Of a stretch of DNA of 64,000 nt, positions 170 through 11,719 are shown piece after piece. This DNA is from Pseudomonadales bacterium (GTDB lineage: Bacteria > Pseudomonadota > Gammaproteobacteria > Pseudomonadales > Pseudohongiellaceae). The DNA lies in assembly GCA_022822865.1 (NCBI GenBank), contig JAJDYJ010000047.1, forward strand, positions 1-64,000. The letters run 5' to 3'. Numbering within the stretch: position 1 is the stretch's first letter; each line of letters starts with the position of its first letter. A program made the position numbers and the translations under genes. The notes below the pieces were generated by a model. That model was not told where the DNA came from. It saw only the letters and a list, made by a program, of their open reading frames with translations, and did no database searches.

Positions 170-1402
170 TCAGATTCTGGCAAGTAACGGATCGAGCAGC
201 ACTTCCCACAACTTTCTTTCTTCCAGTACGATATGTGCGCTGAGAGTCATGCCCGTCTGTAACGGAAACCTCTCGCCATAGGCATCAACGTGCTGCACGG
301 AAATACTGACGAGCACGCGGTAAACCGGACCCGAGACTCCCAGAGCAACAGGCAACTCCGACGGGTCGAATATAGTCCTCGACACCAGGATGATCTTACC
401 CTCCACGATTCCGTATCTCTGGAAAGGGAAAGCATCGAACTGCAGACGCACGTGTTGTCCTTCCTGAATGAAACCTGCAGCCCGCGTTGGCACAAACAAC
501 TCCGCCTCCAGACGACCTCCCTCCGGCAACAAGGCTACGGTCATTTGCTGAGGACGAACACTCTGGCCGGCAGAGAGGGGCAATGCGGCCACACGTCCCG
601 AGACCGGTGCCGCCATCACCAGCGTTCCCCTTCCGGAAACCTGCGCTCTTTGCGACCGCAGGCCGGCAATCCCCTCCCGCAATTCGGTAATCGCCGCCTC
701 TTCATTTGCCGGCAATCCTTCCAAGCGGAGCCGGTAAATCGCCGACTCCCCCTTTTTGATTTCAATCTGCTGCTTGACCTGCGTAGCCGATTGCCGTAGG
801 GAAAGGACGGCTTCCCGTTGCCGGTCGACATCGGACGTGGAAGCGGCATCCGACTTCGCCAGCAATGTAATCCGCTCAAGTGCTTCTCCGGCAGTAAGTA
901 TGCGCTCGTCCAGAACCTGACGCTGTTCCTCAAGAGCGGAAAGTTCGGCCTGAATGGCGTCCATTTGCCCCTCTAGTTCCAAGGCTTCACGGGCGAAACG
1001 CAGTTCCGTCAACGGTATGAGGTTCTCCCGCTCGGTTATCTGAGTTTCCATTTCAGCCAAGGCGATTCCGTACACTCCCTCGCCCGCCGAAAACGCGGTA
1101 TCGAGATTCAGAGTGACCAGGGAATCACCTTCATTGACGATCTGGCCTTCAACAACGTGAACCGTCTCGACCGTTCCCAGTAGTGGAGAGACGACTCGCA
1201 CAAGGCCCTTGTCGGGTTTTATCCAACCCTGCACGATTTCTTTTCTTGCGTAGCCCCCGATGAGCAGCGCCAGTGCTATCACAGCCACGATAGCGCCTAT
1301 GAGCCAAGTGACGACCCATGTCGAAACCGGAGAAGCGAGGGACACCTCGCCAAGCAGACGACTCCCTCTTCTCTCTATAACTTGTTTGCGGAATAGCTCC
1401 AT
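170..1402 (-). CDS. HlyD-family membrane-fusion/adaptor protein of a peptide (bacteriocin-type) exporter
   Basis: Single N-terminal TM helix, biotinyl-lipoyl-like segment (VVSPLLGTVETVHVVEGQIVNEGDSL), coiled-coil region, adjacent to a C39 ABC transporter. Confidence 0.88.
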   Translation of the reverse strand: MELFRKQVIERRGSRLLGEVSLASPVSTWVVTWLIGAIVAVIALALLIGGYARKEIVQGWIKPDKGLVRVVSPLLGTVETVHVVEGQIVNEGDSLVTLNLDTAFSAGEGVYGIALAEMETQITERENLIPLTELRFAREALELEGQMDAIQAELSALEEQRQVLDERILTAGEALERITLLAKSDAASTSDVDRQREAVLSLRQSATQVKQQIEIKKGESAIYRLRLEGLPANEEAAITELREGIAGLRSQRAQVSGRGTLVMAAPVSGRVAALPLSAGQSVRPQQMTVALLPEGGRLEAELFVPTRAAGFIQEGQHVRLQFDAFPFQRYGIVEGKIILVSRTIFDPSELPVALGVSGPVYRVLVSISVQHVDAYGERFPLQTGMTLSAHIVLEERKLWEVLLDPLLARI

Positions 1403-1444: not shown

Positions 1445-3526
1445 TCAACTGCCAGACAAGGATTTCTCATGCTCGACCAGACGGCCTTGGTTCATCACGA
1501 GTACACGATCCGCGCATTCGAGAAGTTGCTTGCCGTGCGCGATGACGATTCTTGTAATGTTCATTTTGGAAATGACTTCTGCAATCTGCAGTTCAGTTTG
1601 CAAGTCCAAATTTGCCGTGCCTTCGTCGAGAAACAAGACTTTCGGGTTGTGGTACAAGGCCCGCGCGAGCAGCAGCCTCTGTCTCTGTCCGCCTGACTGT
1701 GCCGCGCCCATATCGCCAATCAGTGACAGATAGTGCATCGGCATTCGACTGATTTCTTCGTGAACCTGGGCCTGGATGGCGCATTCCACAACCCGTTGCA
1801 TATCAACCTCGGAGTCGAAACTGGAAATGTTGTCAGCAATCGACCCGGACAGGAGTTGATCGTCCTGCATTACTACACCGGCGGCGGCCCTCCAATTGCG
1901 CAGCCCGAGGATATGCAAAGGCAGGCCATCCACTCTGACAATTCCCGACTCCGACTCAAGCAGACCCAACATTACCTTCAATAGTGTCGATTTGCCTCCA
2001 CCCGAAGGCCCTGCAATGGCAATAAATTCACCTGAATCGATTGACAGGGAAACGTTTTCAAAGACGAAAGGATCGTTCTGATCGTATCGAAAGCTGACAT
2101 CTTCAAGCTTGATTTTTCCTTCAATGTTTCGAACGTCCGATATCGGACAATCAAGTCCCGCTTCCTTTTTCGATTGCACTATGTCGGACAATCGCTCCAA
2201 GTGCAATCCCAACATGCGGAATTCTATGCCCTTGTTCACAAGATCTTCGGCCGTATTTGCGAAATGCTGCCTGTACGACATGAAGGCGAACAGCATTCCA
2301 ATGCTGATCTCCCCGGAAAGAATGAGTCCGGCGCCAAAATACACGACCAATACCGTTTGCAGGCCAAACAACAGTGACGATGCAAACTGATTGCCGATCT
2401 GTAACTGATTGTATGAAACATCGGCATTTACTACTTCGGCGTACAGATTTCTCCACATGCCCTCTCGCTGCACTTCCCTACCAAATAGTTTTATAGCACG
2501 AGAAGCTCGTATGGTCTCAATAACGTTTGTGTTCTCAGCAGCGCGCCTGGATATCAATTCTTCTTGCCGGCTTCGCATGAAAGGAAACAAAATGATTGAG
2601 ATAGCCAAATACACGACCGTGAAACCAATAGCAATTAATGCCAGCCGCCAGCTATACAACAGCATCAGTACTATCGTTGCGACCACCATTATTCCGTCAA
2701 TCAAAGCTGCAACGACGCTTTGCGTCAATGCGGTCTGTATTGGCTGTATCGATCCAATACGGGAAATGATGTCTCCAACATGGCGCTGCTCAAAATACTT
2801 CGCGGGAAGACGCGTTAGATGTCGCAACACATTTCCAGCCATCTGAAACGTCAAGGACTGACCCAATAGTAAAATGACCCAAGACCGCAACGCTTCCGTG
2901 ACGGCATTGATAATGTACAGAAGCCCAAAACCAATCCCAAGCAATAACAGTAGGCCGGTATCGTAGCGGGTAACAGCTTCGTCGATCACGAGTTGAAGGT
3001 AAAAGGGGGCGGCTAGTGCAAAAAGTTGTATAACAATCGAAAGAACGAGTATCTGAACGAATGTGCGTTTGAGCCCGGTCAGTCGAGACCACAAGCTTGA
3101 CAGTTTCGTTGGAGTCCGGGCAACGATCGGTCGAAAGTCCGCCGCGGGGGCAAGCTCGAGAGCAACACCGGTGAAGTGTTCAGCGACTTCCTCCAAGGAA
3201 TATGAAACTCGACCCCGGGCCGGATCAAGAATCGTGAACCGGTTCCTTCGAACTTCCTTCAATACAACAAAATGATCTAGGTCCCAATGCAGTACAGCCG
3301 GGAGAGCGATGTCACGGAGTCGTTCCGGCTCAAGTCGCAGAGCTCTTGAACTCAGGGAAAGCTGTTCCGCAATCTCCATCAAATTTCGAAGCCGCACTCC
3401 TTTAAGCGATACGCCAAACCGTTGCCGCAAGTTTACCAAGTCAATTTTGTGGCCGTAATGCTCGGCAACCATTGCTATCGAAGCCAGCCCACATTCAGTA
3501 GCCTCGCTTTGAAGGAAAATTTTCAC
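1445..3526 (-). CDS. Peptidase-C39-domain ABC transporter (bacteriocin/microcin processing and export)
   Basis: C39 motif QSEATECGLASIAMVAEHYG with catalytic Cys, HFVVL His and LDPARG Asp; TM domain; Walker A GPSGGGKST; signature SGGQRQR; Walker B VLFLDEGTAN. Confidence 0.95.
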   Translation of the reverse strand: MKIFLQSEATECGLASIAMVAEHYGHKIDLVNLRQRFGVSLKGVRLRNLMEIAEQLSLSSRALRLEPERLRDIALPAVLHWDLDHFVVLKEVRRNRFTILDPARGRVSYSLEEVAEHFTGVALELAPAADFRPIVARTPTKLSSLWSRLTGLKRTFVQILVLSIVIQLFALAAPFYLQLVIDEAVTRYDTGLLLLLGIGFGLLYIINAVTEALRSWVILLLGQSLTFQMAGNVLRHLTRLPAKYFEQRHVGDIISRIGSIQPIQTALTQSVVAALIDGIMVVATIVLMLLYSWRLALIAIGFTVVYLAISIILFPFMRSRQEELISRRAAENTNVIETIRASRAIKLFGREVQREGMWRNLYAEVVNADVSYNQLQIGNQFASSLLFGLQTVLVVYFGAGLILSGEISIGMLFAFMSYRQHFANTAEDLVNKGIEFRMLGLHLERLSDIVQSKKEAGLDCPISDVRNIEGKIKLEDVSFRYDQNDPFVFENVSLSIDSGEFIAIAGPSGGGKSTLLKVMLGLLESESGIVRVDGLPLHILGLRNWRAAAGVVMQDDQLLSGSIADNISSFDSEVDMQRVVECAIQAQVHEEISRMPMHYLSLIGDMGAAQSGGQRQRLLLARALYHNPKVLFLDEGTANLDLQTELQIAEVISKMNITRIVIAHGKQLLECADRVLVMNQGRLVEHEKSLSGS

Positions 3527-3539
3527 AGCCCGACTCCCT

Positions 3540-4085
3540 TCAAATAGTTTTCTTTAGACCAATGAAAGAAACTATGGCGCTTAAGGTTAATAGGGAAACC
3601 AGTGATGCCAAGTAGAGAGCTATTCTAGTCACAGATATAGAGAAAAGGTTTGTTGTAGCTAACAAAATATCCGCATATCCATATCCGGTAAAAATCACAA
3701 AAATATTACTTACTGCCACGAGAAACCTTGTAATTCCTCCTCCAGCCAAAAGCATAACTATAATAAAGAAGATCAATATGTCCTTTGGTTCACCTTCTTG
3801 AAAATAGGCCTTTATTGGAGTTGATACACTAATCAATTGCTTCAAAATCTTGCCGAATGTCATTTTTCTAACTCGAGCCCGGCATTCCAGATCAGGAAAC
3901 AAATACAACAAGAATGCGGAAATAATTATGGATCCGACAATGTTTGATATAATTAGGCTTTCTATTCCAGTAATAACTGGATTTAACTCGCCTTCCACTC
4001 CTCCAGTAGAAACAATCAAGTAAATCGTAGTTAATACATCTGCTAGTGTTGAAACCAAAATTATGCCAAGAATTGTCCACTTCAT
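3540..4085 (-). CDS. Multi-pass membrane protein of the bacteriocin-like locus (possible immunity or accessory protein)
   Basis: 181 aa, several hydrophobic segments, AT-rich, co-directional between the peptides and the exporter. Confidence 0.7.
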   Translation of the reverse strand: MKWTILGIILVSTLADVLTTIYLIVSTGGVEGELNPVITGIESLIISNIVGSIIISAFLLYLFPDLECRARVRKMTFGKILKQLISVSTPIKAYFQEGEPKDILIFFIIVMLLAGGGITRFLVAVSNIFVIFTGYGYADILLATTNLFSISVTRIALYLASLVSLLTLSAIVSFIGLKKTI

Positions 4086-4100
4086 ATTTGAATCAGAATG

Positions 4101-4367
4101 CTAGATTAAACGGTTCCCGAAAAAATAGACCATAACAAGCCCGGAAAGCAATATGGAAAACAAGAAACAGTAGGCGGAAACAAGCTTGGTTTTTTCCACA
4201 AAAAGCAGAATTACAATGCAACCCAAGTACGCAATAAGTGGCAATGCTACAACATAAGCTAATTGCGAATCGTCACTTAATCCTACAGCGAACAGAATAA
4301 TGCATCCAGCCAAACAGCCAGAGGCAGCCAACTTGCATGTATTCACAATGCCATTCAAATTGTTCAT
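4101..4367 (-). CDS. Small membrane protein (88 aa), candidate immunity protein
   Basis: Internal Met start MNNLNGIVNTCKL... is preferred over the 127-aa ORF, whose extension overlaps the upstream peptide gene; about 3 hydrophobic segments. Confidence 0.6.
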   Translation of the reverse strand: MNNLNGIVNTCKLAASGCLAGCIILFAVGLSDDSQLAYVVALPLIAYLGCIVILLFVEKTKLVSAYCFLFSILLSGLVMVYFFGNRLI

Positions 4368-4428: not shown

Positions 4429-4620
4429 TTATCGCTGTTGCGCCCCCTGCCAAATTGCGGCAAGTGACCCGACTGCCAAGCCAAGCGTAAATGCGATGGC
4501 TAAGGCCGGCAATATCCCCCCTGCAACTTGATCAAGCTCTTCTTCGCTTAGAGTACGAAATTCAGGCAAAGATCTAACTTGCGCGTTCACTTCACTACTC
4601 AAATTGATTTCAGTCATCAT
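4429..4620 (-). CDS. Double-glycine-leader bacteriocin-like precursor peptide (core ILPALAIAFTLGLAVGSLAAIWQGAQQR)
   Basis: Leader ...LSEEELDQVAGG, 28-aa hydrophobic core with GxxxG (GLAVG), next to a C39 exporter. Confidence 0.85.
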   Translation of the reverse strand: MMTEINLSSEVNAQVRSLPEFRTLSEEELDQVAGGILPALAIAFTLGLAVGSLAAIWQGAQQR

Positions 4621-4636: not shown

Positions 4637-4822
4637 TTAAAGAGACTCGATATACTCGCGAAGTCTATAAGACGTTATGCACATTGCTACAACAAGCCCT
4701 AAAACAAGAACTGGATGACCTCCTGACACTTGGTCGAGTTCGTCCTTAGACAGAACGCGATGTTCATAAGGGTATTCAGCCTGGGAACAAGGCTTGTCGA
4801 TGAGTTCAGATTTGATAATCAT
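4637..4822 (-). CDS. Double-glycine-leader bacteriocin-like precursor peptide (core HPVLVLGLVVAMCITSYRLREYIESL)
   Basis: Leader ...LSKDELDQVSGG, hydrophobic 26-aa core, upstream GGAGGAG ribosome-binding site. Confidence 0.83.
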   Translation of the reverse strand: MIIKSELIDKPCSQAEYPYEHRVLSKDELDQVSGGHPVLVLGLVVAMCITSYRLREYIESL

Positions 4823-4840: not shown

Positions 4841-4987
4841 TCACCACAACTGTCTGGTAGTGTGGTATCCGACGAAAACGCCGGCGCCGAAAAAGATTAT
4901 CGCAAGATCGACAGCGATAATTACGGGTATGATTCCACCACTGACCTCATCTACCTCGTTCAAGGTCAACTCTCTGATTTCGTGCAT
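4841..4987 (-). CDS. Double-glycine-leader bacteriocin-like precursor peptide (48 aa; not in the supplied ORF track)
   Basis: Manual translation of the minus strand: MHEIRELTLNEVDEVSGG|IIPVIIAVDLAIIFFGAGVFVGYHTTRQLW*; AGGAGGA RBS just upstream; leader matches LTLNEVDEVSGG consensus. Confidence 0.88.
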   Translation of the reverse strand: MHEIRELTLNEVDEVSGGIIPVIIAVDLAIIFFGAGVFVGYHTTRQLW

Positions 4988-5021
4988 TTTATCCTCCTAT
5001 TGTTCAACTTGGAAATGCCCG

Positions 5022-5097: not shown

Positions 5098-6654
5098 TCA
5101 TTGGCCCAAGTCCTCCCGCGAGAGAAAGATCGGAAATTCCGTCCGCAATTGCATGTCGATTTCGTCGCTGACGTGGCGCGGCGCCGGGGCCGCGAGAATT
5201 TCGCGCTTCTTTGCGATGGCTCGGTCGAGTGGCAGCGGCTTGCCGCTTTCCTCCCATTCCGTCGGGCTCGCGCGGTCGCTGAAGTCCGGGTAGACGTATT
5301 CGCTCTGCATCACCCGCAAGGTATTCGCGGAACCCAGGTAATGTCCCACCCCGCCGGTGCAGACCTGCTCGATCTCGTCAAAACTCAAGGTTTCGGAGTT
5401 GACTTCGATGCCGCGGGTCACGCGGCCGATCGCCCCGAGCACGTCGTTGTCGAGCAGCAGGCTCTCCGGACAGGTTCCCAGGAGGCTGGCATACATCCCG
5501 GCGGCCTCGTAGACGATGTTCGCTCCCGAGAGCGCGGCGGACAACACCGTGGCGGCGCGTTCGGCGCCGGCCTGGAAATCGGGAAACTTGGCGTCGGTCA
5601 TGCCGCAGGCGGTGCCGAAGGGCAAGTCCAGGTGGTTGCCTACCTGCGCGCACGCGGCGGACAGCAAACCCTGCTCTGGCGAGCCGCCGCTCATCGCGCC
5701 GGTGCGCAAGTCCGAAACGAAGGGCCAGGCGCCGAGAATCGCCGGTGCGCCGGGCTCGATGGCGTTGACGTAGACCAATCCGCCGAGGCACTCGGCCCAG
5801 GCCTGGGAAACCGTTCCGGCGAGAAAGGCGGGCCCGGTCGCACCGGCCTGGCCGGCTGACAGCAGCAACACCGGCATGCCGCCTTCCACCGCGACGCGGA
5901 GGCATTCCAGGGCGTCGGCGGCAAACTTGAGCGGCGGCACAACGAAGCAGTTCGACTGGCTGACGAACGGGCGCGCGCGCCATGCGGCCTCGCCTCCCGC
6001 GACGGTGTGCAGCATCGAAAAGCACTGCTCGAGATGTTCGGGGAGGGTCCAGCTTGAGCCGACGTGCTTGGCGGTCCCCATCAGGCAGCAATACAGCGTG
6101 TTGATGTCGAGTTCGCGGTTATCGACGATGTCCCGCGGCACGCAGGTTCGCTGGAACATGTGAATGTGCTCGCAGGTATCGGCGATGCGCGCCATATCGT
6201 AGAGATCCTGCGCCCTTGACTCGCGATAGAGGTTCTTTTCCGGGTCCGCCGCCTGCACTGCCGCGCCCGCGGTTGAGAAATGCACCCGGGAACCGCTGAG
6301 GTCCAGATCGAAACGCGGGTCTCTGGCGTACAGCACGAGGTTGCGCCTGGCCTTTTGCAGGGTTTGCTCGACGAGGCCGCGCGGCATTCGCAAACGGCCG
6401 TCGTCACCGAGTACGGCGCCGGCGTCGATGCAGGTTTCAAGGCAGTGCGGGGTCGCGTCGGCGAAGCCGATCTCTTCGAGTATCCTGAAGGCGTTGTCGA
6501 CGATCGCCGCAATGCCCTCGTCGGTCAGCGGCTTGTACTGTCCGCCGCTGTGACCCGACCGAACCGGCTTTGCAGCCTCCGCGAGCGGCGCGGCGCGAGC
6601 GGCGCGGCGCGCCTGCCTGCCTCCCATTCTCCTGGACATGGCGGTTTCCCCCAA
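5098..6654 (-). CDS. Trimethylamine methyltransferase (MttB) family protein, non-pyrrolysine type
   Basis: MttB-family sequence (DEGIAAIVDNAFRILEEIGF..., C-terminal GGVGHYLGSANTLRVMQSEYVYPDFSDR); uninterrupted ORF without in-frame amber. Confidence 0.88.
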   Translation of the reverse strand: MGETAMSRRMGGRQARRAARAAPLAEAAKPVRSGHSGGQYKPLTDEGIAAIVDNAFRILEEIGFADATPHCLETCIDAGAVLGDDGRLRMPRGLVEQTLQKARRNLVLYARDPRFDLDLSGSRVHFSTAGAAVQAADPEKNLYRESRAQDLYDMARIADTCEHIHMFQRTCVPRDIVDNRELDINTLYCCLMGTAKHVGSSWTLPEHLEQCFSMLHTVAGGEAAWRARPFVSQSNCFVVPPLKFAADALECLRVAVEGGMPVLLLSAGQAGATGPAFLAGTVSQAWAECLGGLVYVNAIEPGAPAILGAWPFVSDLRTGAMSGGSPEQGLLSAACAQVGNHLDLPFGTACGMTDAKFPDFQAGAERAATVLSAALSGANIVYEAAGMYASLLGTCPESLLLDNDVLGAIGRVTRGIEVNSETLSFDEIEQVCTGGVGHYLGSANTLRVMQSEYVYPDFSDRASPTEWEESGKPLPLDRAIAKKREILAAPAPRHVSDEIDMQLRTEFPIFLSREDLGQ

Positions 6655-6841: not shown

Positions 6842-9256
6842 ATGGAAAGCCAGGCCAGAATCGTCATCGTCGGCGGCGGCATCATGGCCGTCGGGCTGCT
6901 GTACCATCTGGCAGAGGAAGGCGCCAAAGACGTCCTGCTGATCGAGAAAGGCGAGTTGACTTCCGGTTCGACCTGGCACGCGGCGGGCCAATGCCCGAAT
7001 CTGGTCGGCAACTACAATCTCGCCAAGATCCACGAATACAGCGTCGCGCTGTATCGCAAACTGGAAGAAATGACCGGCCAGGCCGTCGGCTGGCACGGCT
7101 GCGGCAGCATTCGCTTCGCCCTCACCGAGCGCGACATGGACTGGTTCCGCTATCTGCGCGGAATCGCCGACAACGTCGGCTATCACATGGAAATCATCGA
7201 CGTCGAGAAAATCAGCGAGCTGAATCCTTTTATCGATACCGGCGGTGTTCTCGCCGGCGCCTGGACCGCAAACGACGGCCATGCCGACCCGTCGGGCCTG
7301 ACCCAGGCCATGGCGCGGGGAGCGCGCGAAAACGGCGCGAGAATCGTGCGCAACAACCGGGTGACGGGAATCAATTCGCTTCCGGGCGGCGAATGGGAAG
7401 TCGTCACCGAGCAGGGAACGGTCATCGCGGAAACCGTGGTCAACGCCGCGGGCTGCTTCGCCCGGCAGGTGGCGCAAATGGTGGGAGCGGATCTGCCCAT
7501 CAGCAATATCCAGCACCACTATCTGGTTTCGGGCGATGTGCCCGAACTGATCGGGAGAGAGGCCGAGATTCCCGTGACCCGGGATCCCTGGGCCTCGTCC
7601 TACATACGCCAGGAGCAGAAATCCGGCCTTATCGGAATTTACGAGCAGGAAGGCATTACCGAAGCCTGGCGGCCCGATGGTTTGCCGCCGTGGCAATCGG
7701 ACAGCGAACTGTTTTCCGACGATCTCGACCGTCTGATGCCCTGGCTCGGCCGCGCCATGGAGCGAATGCGGATCTTCGAGCCCGCGGGAATCAAGCGCAT
7801 CGTCAACGGCGCCATCTCCCACAGCCCCGACGGGTTGCCCTTGCTGGGGCCCGTAGCGGGGTTGCGCAATTTCTGGCTTTGCTGCGGGTCGTCCTTCGGC
7901 ATTGCCCAGGGTGCCGGCTGCGGCAAGTATCTGGCCCAGTGGATGCTCCACGGCGATTCCGAAATCAACATGACCGGATTCGATCCCCGGCGCTTCGGCG
8001 TTTTTGCCGACCTCGACTACATGCGGGACCGGGGCCGCCAGGACTACGGCATGACCTACGCCACGGTCGTGCCGGGAGAGGAGCTACCGGCGGCCCGCAA
8101 GCTTCGGACCAGTCCCCTGTACGACAAATTGACCGCCAGGGGCTGCGTGTTTACCGAAACTTTCGGCTGGGAGCGGCCCAAGTGGTTCTCGACGGACGGG
8201 CGGGAAGAGCTGTACAACTTCCGTCACAACAATGTCTTCGAACTGGTGCGCGAAGAATGCCTGGCGGTGCGCGAGCGGGTCGGAATCCTCGATCTGTCGG
8301 GCTTTGCGAAATACGACGTAACGGGCCCCGATGCGGAGAAAATGCTGGACAGGCTTTGCGCCAACCGGTTGCCCCGGCGCGGCCGAATCGCGCTCACGCA
8401 TCTGCTGTCCGAAAACGGCCGCATTGCCGGTGAGGTAACCATCACCCGCCTCGACGATGAGTCCTTCTACATTCTTTCCGCCGCCGGCGCCGAGTTGCGC
8501 GATCTCGACCATTTGCAACAGGGCGTGCGTCCCGGCGAACAACTCAGCATCGCCAACGTCACCGACCGCCGCGGCGTGCTGGTGCTGGCCGGGCCCCATG
8601 CCCGGGACGTGCTTGAGCGGGTAACGGCCGCGCCGCTGGACAACCGCGAGTTTCCCTGGCTCAGCGGCATGGAAATCGACATTGCCGGCGTGCCGGTGCG
8701 GGCGCTGCGCGTCAACTACGTGGGCGAACTGGGCTGGGAGCTGCACCCGCTCATGGAACAGTTGGAACCGCTCTACGACGCCTTGCTGGAGGCCGGCGCG
8801 GATTACGGCATCCGCAATTTCGGCCTCTACGCCGTCAACAGCCTGCGATTGGAAAAGGCCTACCGCGGCTGGGGCGCGGAACTGACCAACGAAGTCACGC
8901 TGGTCGACGCCGACATGGAACGATTCATCAAGTTCGACAAGGGCGATTTCACCGGCCGCGAAGCGACCCTCGGGCAGCGCGACCGGGAGTTGCAACTGAT
9001 CTACTTCAGCCTGGAACCCGGCGACGCCGACGTGCAAGGCGGAGAACCGATTTTCTCCGGCGAGCGCTGCGTCGGCGTTACCACCTCAGGCGGCTATGGC
9101 CACTATGTGCGGCGAAGTCTCGGTTTCGGTTATGTCCCGCCCGCGCTCGCCGAACCGGGTACCGAACTGACCGTGGAAGTGCTCGGACAAAGGCGGCGGA
9201 TATTCCTGCACAAAGATCCGGTTTACGATCCGGCTAACGAACGATTGCGCGCCTGA
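6842..9256 (+). CDS. FAD-dependent oxidoreductase with C-terminal GcvT-like domain (dimethylglycine/sarcosine dehydrogenase family)
   Basis: GxGxxG-type VIVGGGIMAVGLLYHL, covalent-FAD His context TSGSTWHAAG, C-terminal GcvT-like region. Confidence 0.92.
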   Translation: MESQARIVIVGGGIMAVGLLYHLAEEGAKDVLLIEKGELTSGSTWHAAGQCPNLVGNYNLAKIHEYSVALYRKLEEMTGQAVGWHGCGSIRFALTERDMDWFRYLRGIADNVGYHMEIIDVEKISELNPFIDTGGVLAGAWTANDGHADPSGLTQAMARGARENGARIVRNNRVTGINSLPGGEWEVVTEQGTVIAETVVNAAGCFARQVAQMVGADLPISNIQHHYLVSGDVPELIGREAEIPVTRDPWASSYIRQEQKSGLIGIYEQEGITEAWRPDGLPPWQSDSELFSDDLDRLMPWLGRAMERMRIFEPAGIKRIVNGAISHSPDGLPLLGPVAGLRNFWLCCGSSFGIAQGAGCGKYLAQWMLHGDSEINMTGFDPRRFGVFADLDYMRDRGRQDYGMTYATVVPGEELPAARKLRTSPLYDKLTARGCVFTETFGWERPKWFSTDGREELYNFRHNNVFELVREECLAVRERVGILDLSGFAKYDVTGPDAEKMLDRLCANRLPRRGRIALTHLLSENGRIAGEVTITRLDDESFYILSAAGAELRDLDHLQQGVRPGEQLSIANVTDRRGVLVLAGPHARDVLERVTAAPLDNREFPWLSGMEIDIAGVPVRALRVNYVGELGWELHPLMEQLEPLYDALLEAGADYGIRNFGLYAVNSLRLEKAYRGWGAELTNEVTLVDADMERFIKFDKGDFTGREATLGQRDRELQLIYFSLEPGDADVQGGEPIFSGERCVGVTTSGGYGHYVRRSLGFGYVPPALAEPGTELTVEVLGQRRRIFLHKDPVYDPANERLRA

Positions 9257-9262
9257 AGATCG

Positions 9263-11719
9263 ATGACCAGCGGTTCCGGACACACAACCGAACTCCCGCG
9301 CCGCGCCGGCGCGATCATCATCGGCGGCGGCGTCATCGGCTGCTCCGTCGCCTGGCACCTGGCGCGGGACGGCGTTGCGGACGTCGTGTTGCTGGAACGC
9401 AGGCAACTCACTTCCGGCACGACCTGGCATGCGGCGGGCCTGGTGGGCCAACTGCGTACTTCGGTGAACATGACTGAACTGGCGCGCTATACCAGCGAAC
9501 TCTACCGGCGCCTGGAGGAAGAAACCGGTCAGGCGACGGGTTATCGGCGCTGCGGATCCATTTCGCTCGCCACCAACGAAGAACGATTCGAGGAACTGAA
9601 GCGCAGCGCGTCCATGGCGAAAGTCTTTGAGCTGGAAGTCCAGGTGCTCGATCCCGCGGCCATTGCGGCCCGGGTTCCCCTGCTCAATATTGATGACGTA
9701 CTCGGCGGCATCCATATACCGTCCGACGGCTACGCGAACGCCGTCGACGTCACCAACGCCCTGGCGAAGGGCGCTCGCGCCGCCGGCGCGCGCATTTTCC
9801 AGAACACTCCGGTCGAATCCATTCTCACCGCGGGCGGCCGCGTCGCCGGAGTGGTTACCGACCGGGGCGAGATTGAAGCCGACTGCGTGGTCTTGTGCGC
9901 CGGCATGTGGACTAGGGAACTGGCGGCCTCGATCGGCGTGAACGTGCCCCTGCACGCCTGCGAGCACTACTACGCCCTGTTCGATTCGGTGGCGGGATTG
10001 AGCCCGGACCTGCCGGTCGTGCGCGATTACGACGCCTGCTCCTATTTCAAGTACGACGCGGGCAAACTGCTGGTCGGAGCCTTCGAGCCCAACTCCAGGC
10101 CCTGGGGGGCCGAAGGCATACCGGAGGACTTCTGTTTCGATGAGATTCCCGGCAGCCTGGAGCATTTCGAGCCGATTCTCGAACAGGCCATGGCGCGCGT
10201 CCCCGCGCTGGAAACCGCCGGTCTGGCAAAGTTTTTCTGCGGACCCGAGAGCTTTACGCCGGACGTGCGCTACCACATCGGCCAGGCGCCCGAGATGGAT
10301 AACTGTTTCGTGGCGGCTGGATTGAATTCCATCGGTCTGCAATCCGCCGGCGGCATCGGCAAGGTAATATCGGAATGGATACGGCTCGGACATCCGCCGT
10401 CGGATCTCTGGGAAGTGGACGTGCGCCGCAACCTGCCCTTTCAGCGCAACCGCAGATACCTGCGCGAGAGGGTCTCCGAAAGCCTCGGACTGCTATACGC
10501 CGCGCACTACCCCTATCGCCAGTACGACACTGCCCGGGGCGTTCGAAAATCGCCGCTACATGACCGTCTGCAGGCCATCGGTGCGTGCCACGGCGAACTC
10601 GCCGGCTGGGAACGGCCCAACTGGTATGCGCCGCAACCTGACCTGGCGCGTTACGAGTACAGTTGGGGACGGCAGAACTGGTTCGAATACTCCGCCCGGG
10701 AACACCGGGCGGTGCGCGAGCGCGCGGGCTTGTTCGATCAGTCCTCGTTCGCCAAGTTCATGGTCCAGGGCCGCGAAGCGGTACGGGTGCTGAATCGCGT
10801 TTGCGCGAACGACATTGACGTGTCCCCGGGACGCATAGTCTATACCCAGTGGCTGAACGAACGCGGTGGCATCGAAGCGGATTTGACGGTCACCCGTCTG
10901 AATGAGATTTGCTACCTGGTCGTTACCGCGGCCGCTACTGAAATCCGGGACTTCAACTGGCTGCAACGGCATATTCCGGCCGACAGCCACTGCACGTTGA
11001 CCAACGTGACCTCGGCGATGGGCGTGATTTCGATCATGGGACCGAACTCCCGTGCGCTGTTGCAATCGCTGAGCCCCGACGATCTCTCCCACGAGGCCTT
11101 TCCCTTCGCCCACAGCCGGGAAATCGAGCTCGGTCACGCGCTGGTGCGCGCCTCCCGCATTACCTACGTCGGCGAACTCGGCTGGGAACTCTACGTCCCC
11201 ACCGAGTTCACGGCCGGCGTCTACGACGCCATTGTCGAGGCCGGCGCGGCCTTCGACCTGGCCCACGCCGGCTACCATGCGCTCGATTCGCTGCGCATCG
11301 AAAAGGCCTACCGGCATTGGGGCCACGACATCACCGACGAAGACACGCCGCTCGAAGCGGGCCTTGGCTTCGCCGTCAAGTTCGACAAGCCGGGCGGATT
11401 CATCGGCCGCGAGGCCTTGGTGGAACAGCGGCAAACGGGGCCGGCGAAGCGCTTGCTGCAGTTCCGGCTGCTCGACCCGAAACCGCTGCTCTATCACGAC
11501 GAACCCGTTTGGCAGGGCGACTCACTGGTCGGGCGCATCACCTCGGGCGCCTACGGCCACACGCTCGGCGGCGCGATCGGCCTGGGCTATGTCGATACCG
11601 CAAAAGCACCAGACCCCGCCGCGGGAAACTTCAGCGTCGAAGTGGCCGGAGAAAAGTTCGCCGCGGAAGCATCATCGAGACCAATGTACGATCCAGCCAA
11701 CGAGCGCATCCGTTCTTGA
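9263..11719 (+). CDS. FAD-dependent oxidoreductase with C-terminal GcvT-like domain, tandem paralogue of the preceding gene
   Basis: IIIGGGVIGCSVAWHLA, TSGTTWHAAG, same architecture and C-terminus (YDPANERIRS vs YDPANERLRA). Confidence 0.92.
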   Translation: MTSGSGHTTELPRRAGAIIIGGGVIGCSVAWHLARDGVADVVLLERRQLTSGTTWHAAGLVGQLRTSVNMTELARYTSELYRRLEEETGQATGYRRCGSISLATNEERFEELKRSASMAKVFELEVQVLDPAAIAARVPLLNIDDVLGGIHIPSDGYANAVDVTNALAKGARAAGARIFQNTPVESILTAGGRVAGVVTDRGEIEADCVVLCAGMWTRELAASIGVNVPLHACEHYYALFDSVAGLSPDLPVVRDYDACSYFKYDAGKLLVGAFEPNSRPWGAEGIPEDFCFDEIPGSLEHFEPILEQAMARVPALETAGLAKFFCGPESFTPDVRYHIGQAPEMDNCFVAAGLNSIGLQSAGGIGKVISEWIRLGHPPSDLWEVDVRRNLPFQRNRRYLRERVSESLGLLYAAHYPYRQYDTARGVRKSPLHDRLQAIGACHGELAGWERPNWYAPQPDLARYEYSWGRQNWFEYSAREHRAVRERAGLFDQSSFAKFMVQGREAVRVLNRVCANDIDVSPGRIVYTQWLNERGGIEADLTVTRLNEICYLVVTAAATEIRDFNWLQRHIPADSHCTLTNVTSAMGVISIMGPNSRALLQSLSPDDLSHEAFPFAHSREIELGHALVRASRITYVGELGWELYVPTEFTAGVYDAIVEAGAAFDLAHAGYHALDSLRIEKAYRHWGHDITDEDTPLEAGLGFAVKFDKPGGFIGREALVEQRQTGPAKRLLQFRLLDPKPLLYHDEPVWQGDSLVGRITSGAYGHTLGGAIGLGYVDTAKAPDPAAGNFSVEVAGEKFAAEASSRPMYDPANERIRS

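Follow-up and report, generated by a model that had tools for sequence, protein, structure and literature searches.

A candidate mobile bacteriocin-type cassette with three GG-leader peptides and a poly-G tract in its putative promoter

Operons encoding peptides with a GG leader are known and common. In class II microcin systems, the TolC outer-membrane channel is usually encoded elsewhere. Class II microcins are about 5-10 kDa (PMC10233263, Table 1); the cores described below count 26-30 aa. In Neisseria, homopolymers are found in core promoters: the number of G's between the -10 and -35 elements sets transcription of porA (PMC3899988), and a poly-C core promoter accounts for the transcriptional phase variation of fetA (PMC13293289). 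In parallel, the Neisseria nap island was described as a horizontally acquired set of bacteriocin-like GG-leader peptides accompanied by homopolymer tracts that are expected to phase-vary (PMC11798529).

The locus analyzed here lies on the minus strand of a window (the whole 64-kb stretch of DNA that was analyzed). Its favored reading, to which a probability of about 0.6 was given, is that of a mobile class II microcin/bacteriocin-type cassette in which a short gene, pepA, is the first of three co-transcribed precursors placed under a phase-variable poly-G promoter.

The pepA operon and its export genes

The pepA gene occupies positions 4841-4987, stop included, of the minus strand and encodes a 48-aa peptide composed of an 18-aa GG leader and a 30-aa hydrophobic core, with a hydropathy maximum of 2.55 over a 19-residue stretch. 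It starts with ATG and is preceded by a ribosome-binding site, AGGAGG at 4993-4998 (AGGAGGA at 4998-4992), the end of which lies five bases from the start codon. It opens a series of ORFs on the same strand in which pepB (4637-4822, minus strand) and pepC (4429-4620, minus strand) follow after gaps of 18 and 16 nt and encode GG-leader peptides of 61 and 63 aa, each with a 35-aa leader. All three leaders end in (E/D)(V/L)DxVxGG. The original prediction, made from the sequence, had proposed a 48-aa ORF preceded by AGGAGGA at the head of an operon and 35-aa leaders in the other two peptides, and it proved right on each of these points, including the translation of pepA. When ORFs of 30-100 aa with an ATG, a ribosome-binding site and the GG-leader motif were counted, the window contained three, exactly pepA, pepB and pepC, while 60 simulations of these 64 kb with a second-order Markov model gave 0.07 on average and never more than 1.

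The precursors resemble described bacteriocins mainly through their leaders. NCBIfam TIGR03949 (class IIb bacteriocin, lactobin A/cerein 7B) matched pepA at 28.7 bits and pepC at 27.2 bits, above the curated cut-off of 21.5, and pepB scored 15.0 bits with TIGR01847, just under the cut-off of 15.7. In addition, pepC matched Pfam Bacteriocin_IIc with E=1.7e-4, under the Pfam cut-off. Family searches with the cores of pepA, pepB and pepC returned nothing, and a leader-only piece still scored 14.9 bits, so that the class IIb family name rests largely on the leader; membership of pepA and pepC in TIGR03949 is not established, no homology of the mature core having been found. The three cores are 26-30 aa long, hydrophobic and near neutral, and their similarity to one another was no higher than that of shuffled sequence.

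Downstream of the peptides lies a 693-aa ABC exporter with a C39 peptidase domain (PCAT; 1445-3526, minus strand, GTG start) in which the Pfam domains Peptidase_C39 (PF03412, 2.6e-35), ABC_membrane and ABC_tran were recognized and which matches solved PCAT structures. The Cys-His-Asp triad is a requirement for a working PCAT (PMC9746304), and Cys12, His85 and Asp101 could all be read from the exporter sequence. A gene for a 410-aa HlyD-type membrane-fusion protein (170-1402, minus strand; Pfam HlyD_3, 5.1e-17) starts 42 nt after the exporter gene. The leader motif, the TIGR03949 match, the tandem peptides, the C39 exporter and the HlyD adaptor all uphold the proposal of a GG-leader gene heading the operon, and pepA is very probably a genuine gene, with a small secreted bacteriocin-type peptide of a kind already known as its product.

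Two small membrane proteins are encoded between the peptides and the exporter: one of about 88 aa (4101-4367, minus strand, start codon uncertain) with three hydrophobic segments, and one of 181 aa (3540-4085, minus strand) with four. Immunity proteins of class II microcins are recognized as proteins of 51-216 aa encoded near the microcin gene, usually with membrane helices; both are considered immunity candidates. Neither gave a family match in Pfam or NCBIfam or matched a known immunity family, and PADLOC returned no match for them or for pepA. In the proposed mechanism, the exporter's C39 domain would cleave every precursor after GG, and the hydrophobic 26-30-aa cores would be released through the exporter and the HlyD-type adaptor. 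The released cores would most likely insert into the membranes of competitors, and one or both small membrane proteins may protect the producer.

The GC content is 36-56% across the operon as compared with 66% in the flanking MttB gene, which suggests that the operon was acquired horizontally. The MttB-family gene (5098-6654) holds a match to the Rfam family PYLIS_3 (window 5502-5601), the sole Rfam match. It is probably a non-pyrrolysine relative, because its frame is open with no in-frame TAG.

A poly-G tract between promoter-like hexamers

The most unusual feature of the locus, absent from the original prediction, is a putative poly-G promoter upstream of pepA. On the minus strand, a dyad (ACATTTTGTTACAAA, 5088-5074; consensus ACAATTTGTTRCAAA in relatives), which may be a regulator site, is followed by the -35-like hexamer TTGACT (5056-5051, 5/6), by TC, by 15 G (5048-5034), by TGGCAC, by the -10-like hexamer TATACG (5027-5022, 4/6) and, after 34 nt, by the ATG of pepA. 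The 15-G tract is the sole run of at least seven G or C in the window. It would form most of a promoter spacer of 23 bp in the assembly, and a standard promoter scan allowing spacers of 16-18 bp called nothing at the TTGACT site, an outcome that a mis-spaced tract predicts. Since the spacer is 23 bp with 15 G and no promoter is called by the scan, the assembled state of the promoter is predicted to be OFF. Replication slippage in the tract would change the distance between -35 and -10, so that some cells would express the operon and others would not; the loss of about six G's would give a spacer of 17 bp.

The same arrangement is found in relatives. Dyad, TTGACT-like hexamer and G run occur in the same order before GG-peptide genes at two loci of G082, two loci of G055, one of G028 and in the window, so that five GG-peptide promoters besides that of pepA have the tract in the same position. 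The tracts count 15 G in the window, 12 and 11 in G082, 16 and 10 in G055 and 12 in G028, with the reservation that homopolymer lengths in draft assemblies are unreliable and these values may be misstated. A search of 137 genomes of the family with the pattern TTTGTYRCAA-N5-34-G8 gave six sites in four genomes, six out of six before GG-peptide genes, and the reversed control of this pattern gave no sites in the same 137 genomes. Among 394 genomes of the order, few of them congeners, the pattern returned the window alone. When the dyad was omitted, seven sites were obtained in 84 congeners, namely the same six and one more in G028. This seventh site (contig C12, L200 1420-1530) reads TTGACT, ten bases, G10 and TATAGT, and the gene behind it encodes a 341-aa protein with a signal-peptide-like start, not a GG peptide.

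The presence of the tract as such is not easily explained as an assembly artefact, because four species have it at the same place and one of them (G082) is represented by a single-contig genome. Other G/C runs were set aside as probable artefacts, namely those beside an N stretch between a poly-G promoter and a GG peptide in G028 (contig C16, L050 6655-6719) and those at the ends of contigs C26 and C28. As for the background, tracts of exactly 10 G, the length counted, numbered 0-2 per genome in six congeners. Before their GG peptide, the three relatives that have no tract (G081, G042 and one locus of G055) show a TTGACA promoter whose spacer is 16-18 bp long.

The leading alternative holds that the operon is real and that the poly-G arose by chance in an ordinary promoter region, with no switching. 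The tract is clear at all six sites, and so is the -35 (TTGACA-like, 4-6 of 6, just before the poly-G), which is weaker in L108. The -10 hexamers, however, are weak, differ among the six sites and are ambiguous at several, none reaching 4/6 at L042; this weakness and unevenness is the main weak point of the switch and speaks for the chance explanation, as does the fact that the differences in tract length (10-16) were seen between loci only. Against it, six different GG-peptide genes of four species have the tract at the same position before them and it is found almost nowhere else, and in known systems few repeats are as unstable as G and C runs (PMC3899988, PMC13293289). A chance homopolymer is held to be unlikely.

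Homopolymers were also observed in other apparent peptide genes of the same genome. On contig C8 (L157 1-20000), many G/C runs occur, for instance at 150-164, 1176-1190, 2560-2568, 6622-6635, 7841-7852, 9069-9083 and 11480-11498, and several lie inside small ORFs that share the motif FPWTAPSIREISL / FPWTPPSIREISLLNDTQGG and similar forms, each of these ORFs having a poly-C run of 9-19 within its coding sequence. At least one of the runs, the C15 at 9069-9083, breaks the frame in the assembly, and others are in frame. An asparagine-synthase-like protein, HPr-kinase-like proteins and a sulfotransferase are encoded nearby, and the array looks like a lasso-peptide locus with lasso-type precursors. 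Contig C10 (L159 531-546) has one more copy of this precursor type, with a C16 run. The runs on contig C8 add to the credibility of homopolymer switching of peptide genes in this organism.

Conserved exporters and exchanged cargo

Exporters 71-79% identical to that of the window were found at ten loci in five congeners: two in G082, two and a partial one in G081, three, one of them interrupted, in G055, and one each in G028 and G042. GG peptides are encoded near eight of these ten exporter loci and their cores are unrelated, being N/G/D-rich, 24 aa long, or about 50-60 aa long. The search of the 137 family genomes for the pepA core returned no ortholog, the weak matches being mostly leader matches. 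Beyond the family set, a scan of contigs with the exporter returned two distant loci and no more, and in a plasmid collection the exporter reached at most 47.6% identity and all pepA matches had an E of 3 or more. Homologs of the 181-aa membrane protein, 30-34% identical, are present in G081, G025 and G082, and CAAX-protease-like proteins (PF02517) were found in two exporter loci, one each in G082 and G081; this last family is discussed in the literature on bacteriocin self-immunity. The best reading of this comparison is that the unit moves horizontally as a cassette whose exporter is conserved and whose cargo and immunity genes are exchanged.

A related observation was made in G025, where contig C137 (L196 3594-3758) encodes a 54-aa peptide starting with MNEIREL that resembles pepA but has no GG site. 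It is followed by a 49-aa membrane peptide and by the homolog of the window's 181-aa protein, and no exporter gene was seen among the nearby same-strand ORFs listed at this locus.

The same genes could serve other ends than competition. GG-leader peptides exported by PCATs are described as serving communication as well as competition (PMC7018657), and the peptides of the window may in principle be pheromones, processed and exported in the same way and sensed by siblings. Such a role is quite improbable here, given that the stretch from the peptides to the end of the HlyD gene contains no gene for a sensor kinase or a response regulator, that the cores are hydrophobic and 26-30 aa long, and that related cassettes carry proteins of the CAAX-protease-like family linked to bacteriocin self-immunity. 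Action on the producer's own population, as a phase-variable autolysis, is suggested by the Nap peptides: these too carry GG leaders, they mediate autolysis and showed no inhibition of competitors, and homopolymer tracts lying in reading frames probably make them phase variable (PMC11798529); the peptides of the window are likewise paired with a homopolymer. Yet the operon holds two immunity-like membrane proteins and a dedicated exporter, the turnover of cargo between species fits competition, and the described Nap peptides are cationic as opposed to the near-neutral cores found here, which leaves autolysis with a small share of the probability.

The relatives also put the leader of pepA in perspective. 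The original prediction had called its 18 aa unusually short, and this part did not hold: related loci have leaders of 15 aa (MRELTYEEMEQVDGG and similar), 18 aa (MSEIRELNFHEIYAVSGG, MNEIRELTSDEIEEVSGG), 24 aa and 29 aa, so that 18 aa is a normal length and the 35-aa leaders of pepB and pepC lie at the long end. In the same genome, on contig C91 and thus apart from the operon, a 96-aa GG peptide with the 15-aa leader MRELTYEEMEQVDGG (L052 5023-5313; TIGR03949, 31.9 bits) was found, and similar peptides occur in several congeners. That pepA is untranslated and pepB and pepC are the sole genes is very improbable: the lack of orthologs in the family, and with it of evolutionary proof of coding, speaks for it, but pepA has a strong ribosome-binding site and a GG leader with a curated match, comes first after the promoter, and has a leader similar to the 18-aa ones placed directly before the exporter in G042 (MNEIRELTSDEIEEVSGG) and upstream of it in G081 (MSEIRELNFHEIYAVSGG).

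Comparison with described systems

The broader proposal that can be drawn from the favored reading, a bacteriocin-type cassette under a poly-G switch, is that a hypermutable poly-G spacer controls mobile cassettes, so that lineages would randomly make a weapon together with its exporter. The cargo would be exchanged and the switch and exporter kept, and the poly-C runs of the lasso-type genes in the same genome would make a wider repertoire phase variable. To this whole we give an even chance. If true, it would offer a simple model of a random and heritable division of labor between armed and unarmed cells, the poly-G promoter would be a sequence signature for finding further such peptides, and cargo exchange, exporter conservation and random switching would be joined in one mobile unit. 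A literature search, with most subscription papers outside it, found no bacteriocin-type operon with a homopolymer switch in the promoter spacer, the nearest case being the nap island; such a search is not proof of novelty.

As judged from its genes, the operon is predicted to work like a class II microcin system. It shares with the colicin V/microcin V type a GG-leader precursor, a C39 exporter with an intact triad, an HlyD-type fusion protein and, in the form of candidates, small membrane proteins of immunity size nearby. It differs by its three precursors per operon and by an unrelated core sequence, and its antibacterial action is a prediction. In the same way, pepA and pepC resemble class IIb two-peptide bacteriocins (lactobin A/cerein 7B, TIGR03949) by scores above the cut-off, by hydrophobic cores and by a GxxxG in both, whereas the core alone is unmatched, the adaptor is of the HlyD type as in Gram-negative systems, and there are three peptides with no defined pair.

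With regard to the switch, the nap island likewise pairs GG-leader bacteriocin-like peptides of horizontal origin with homopolymers that are expected to phase-vary, but its tracts lie in the napR and napC reading frames and its peptides are autolytic, while the tract of the present locus lies in a putative promoter spacer. In Neisseria porA and fetA, in turn, transcription is altered by a homopolymer of G or C located in the core promoter, for porA within the -10/-35 spacer, an arrangement to which the tract of the window would correspond. Those promoters control outer-membrane proteins of a pathogen and their length variation was measured, whereas here the homopolymer would control a bacteriocin-type operon through a predicted variation in tract length.
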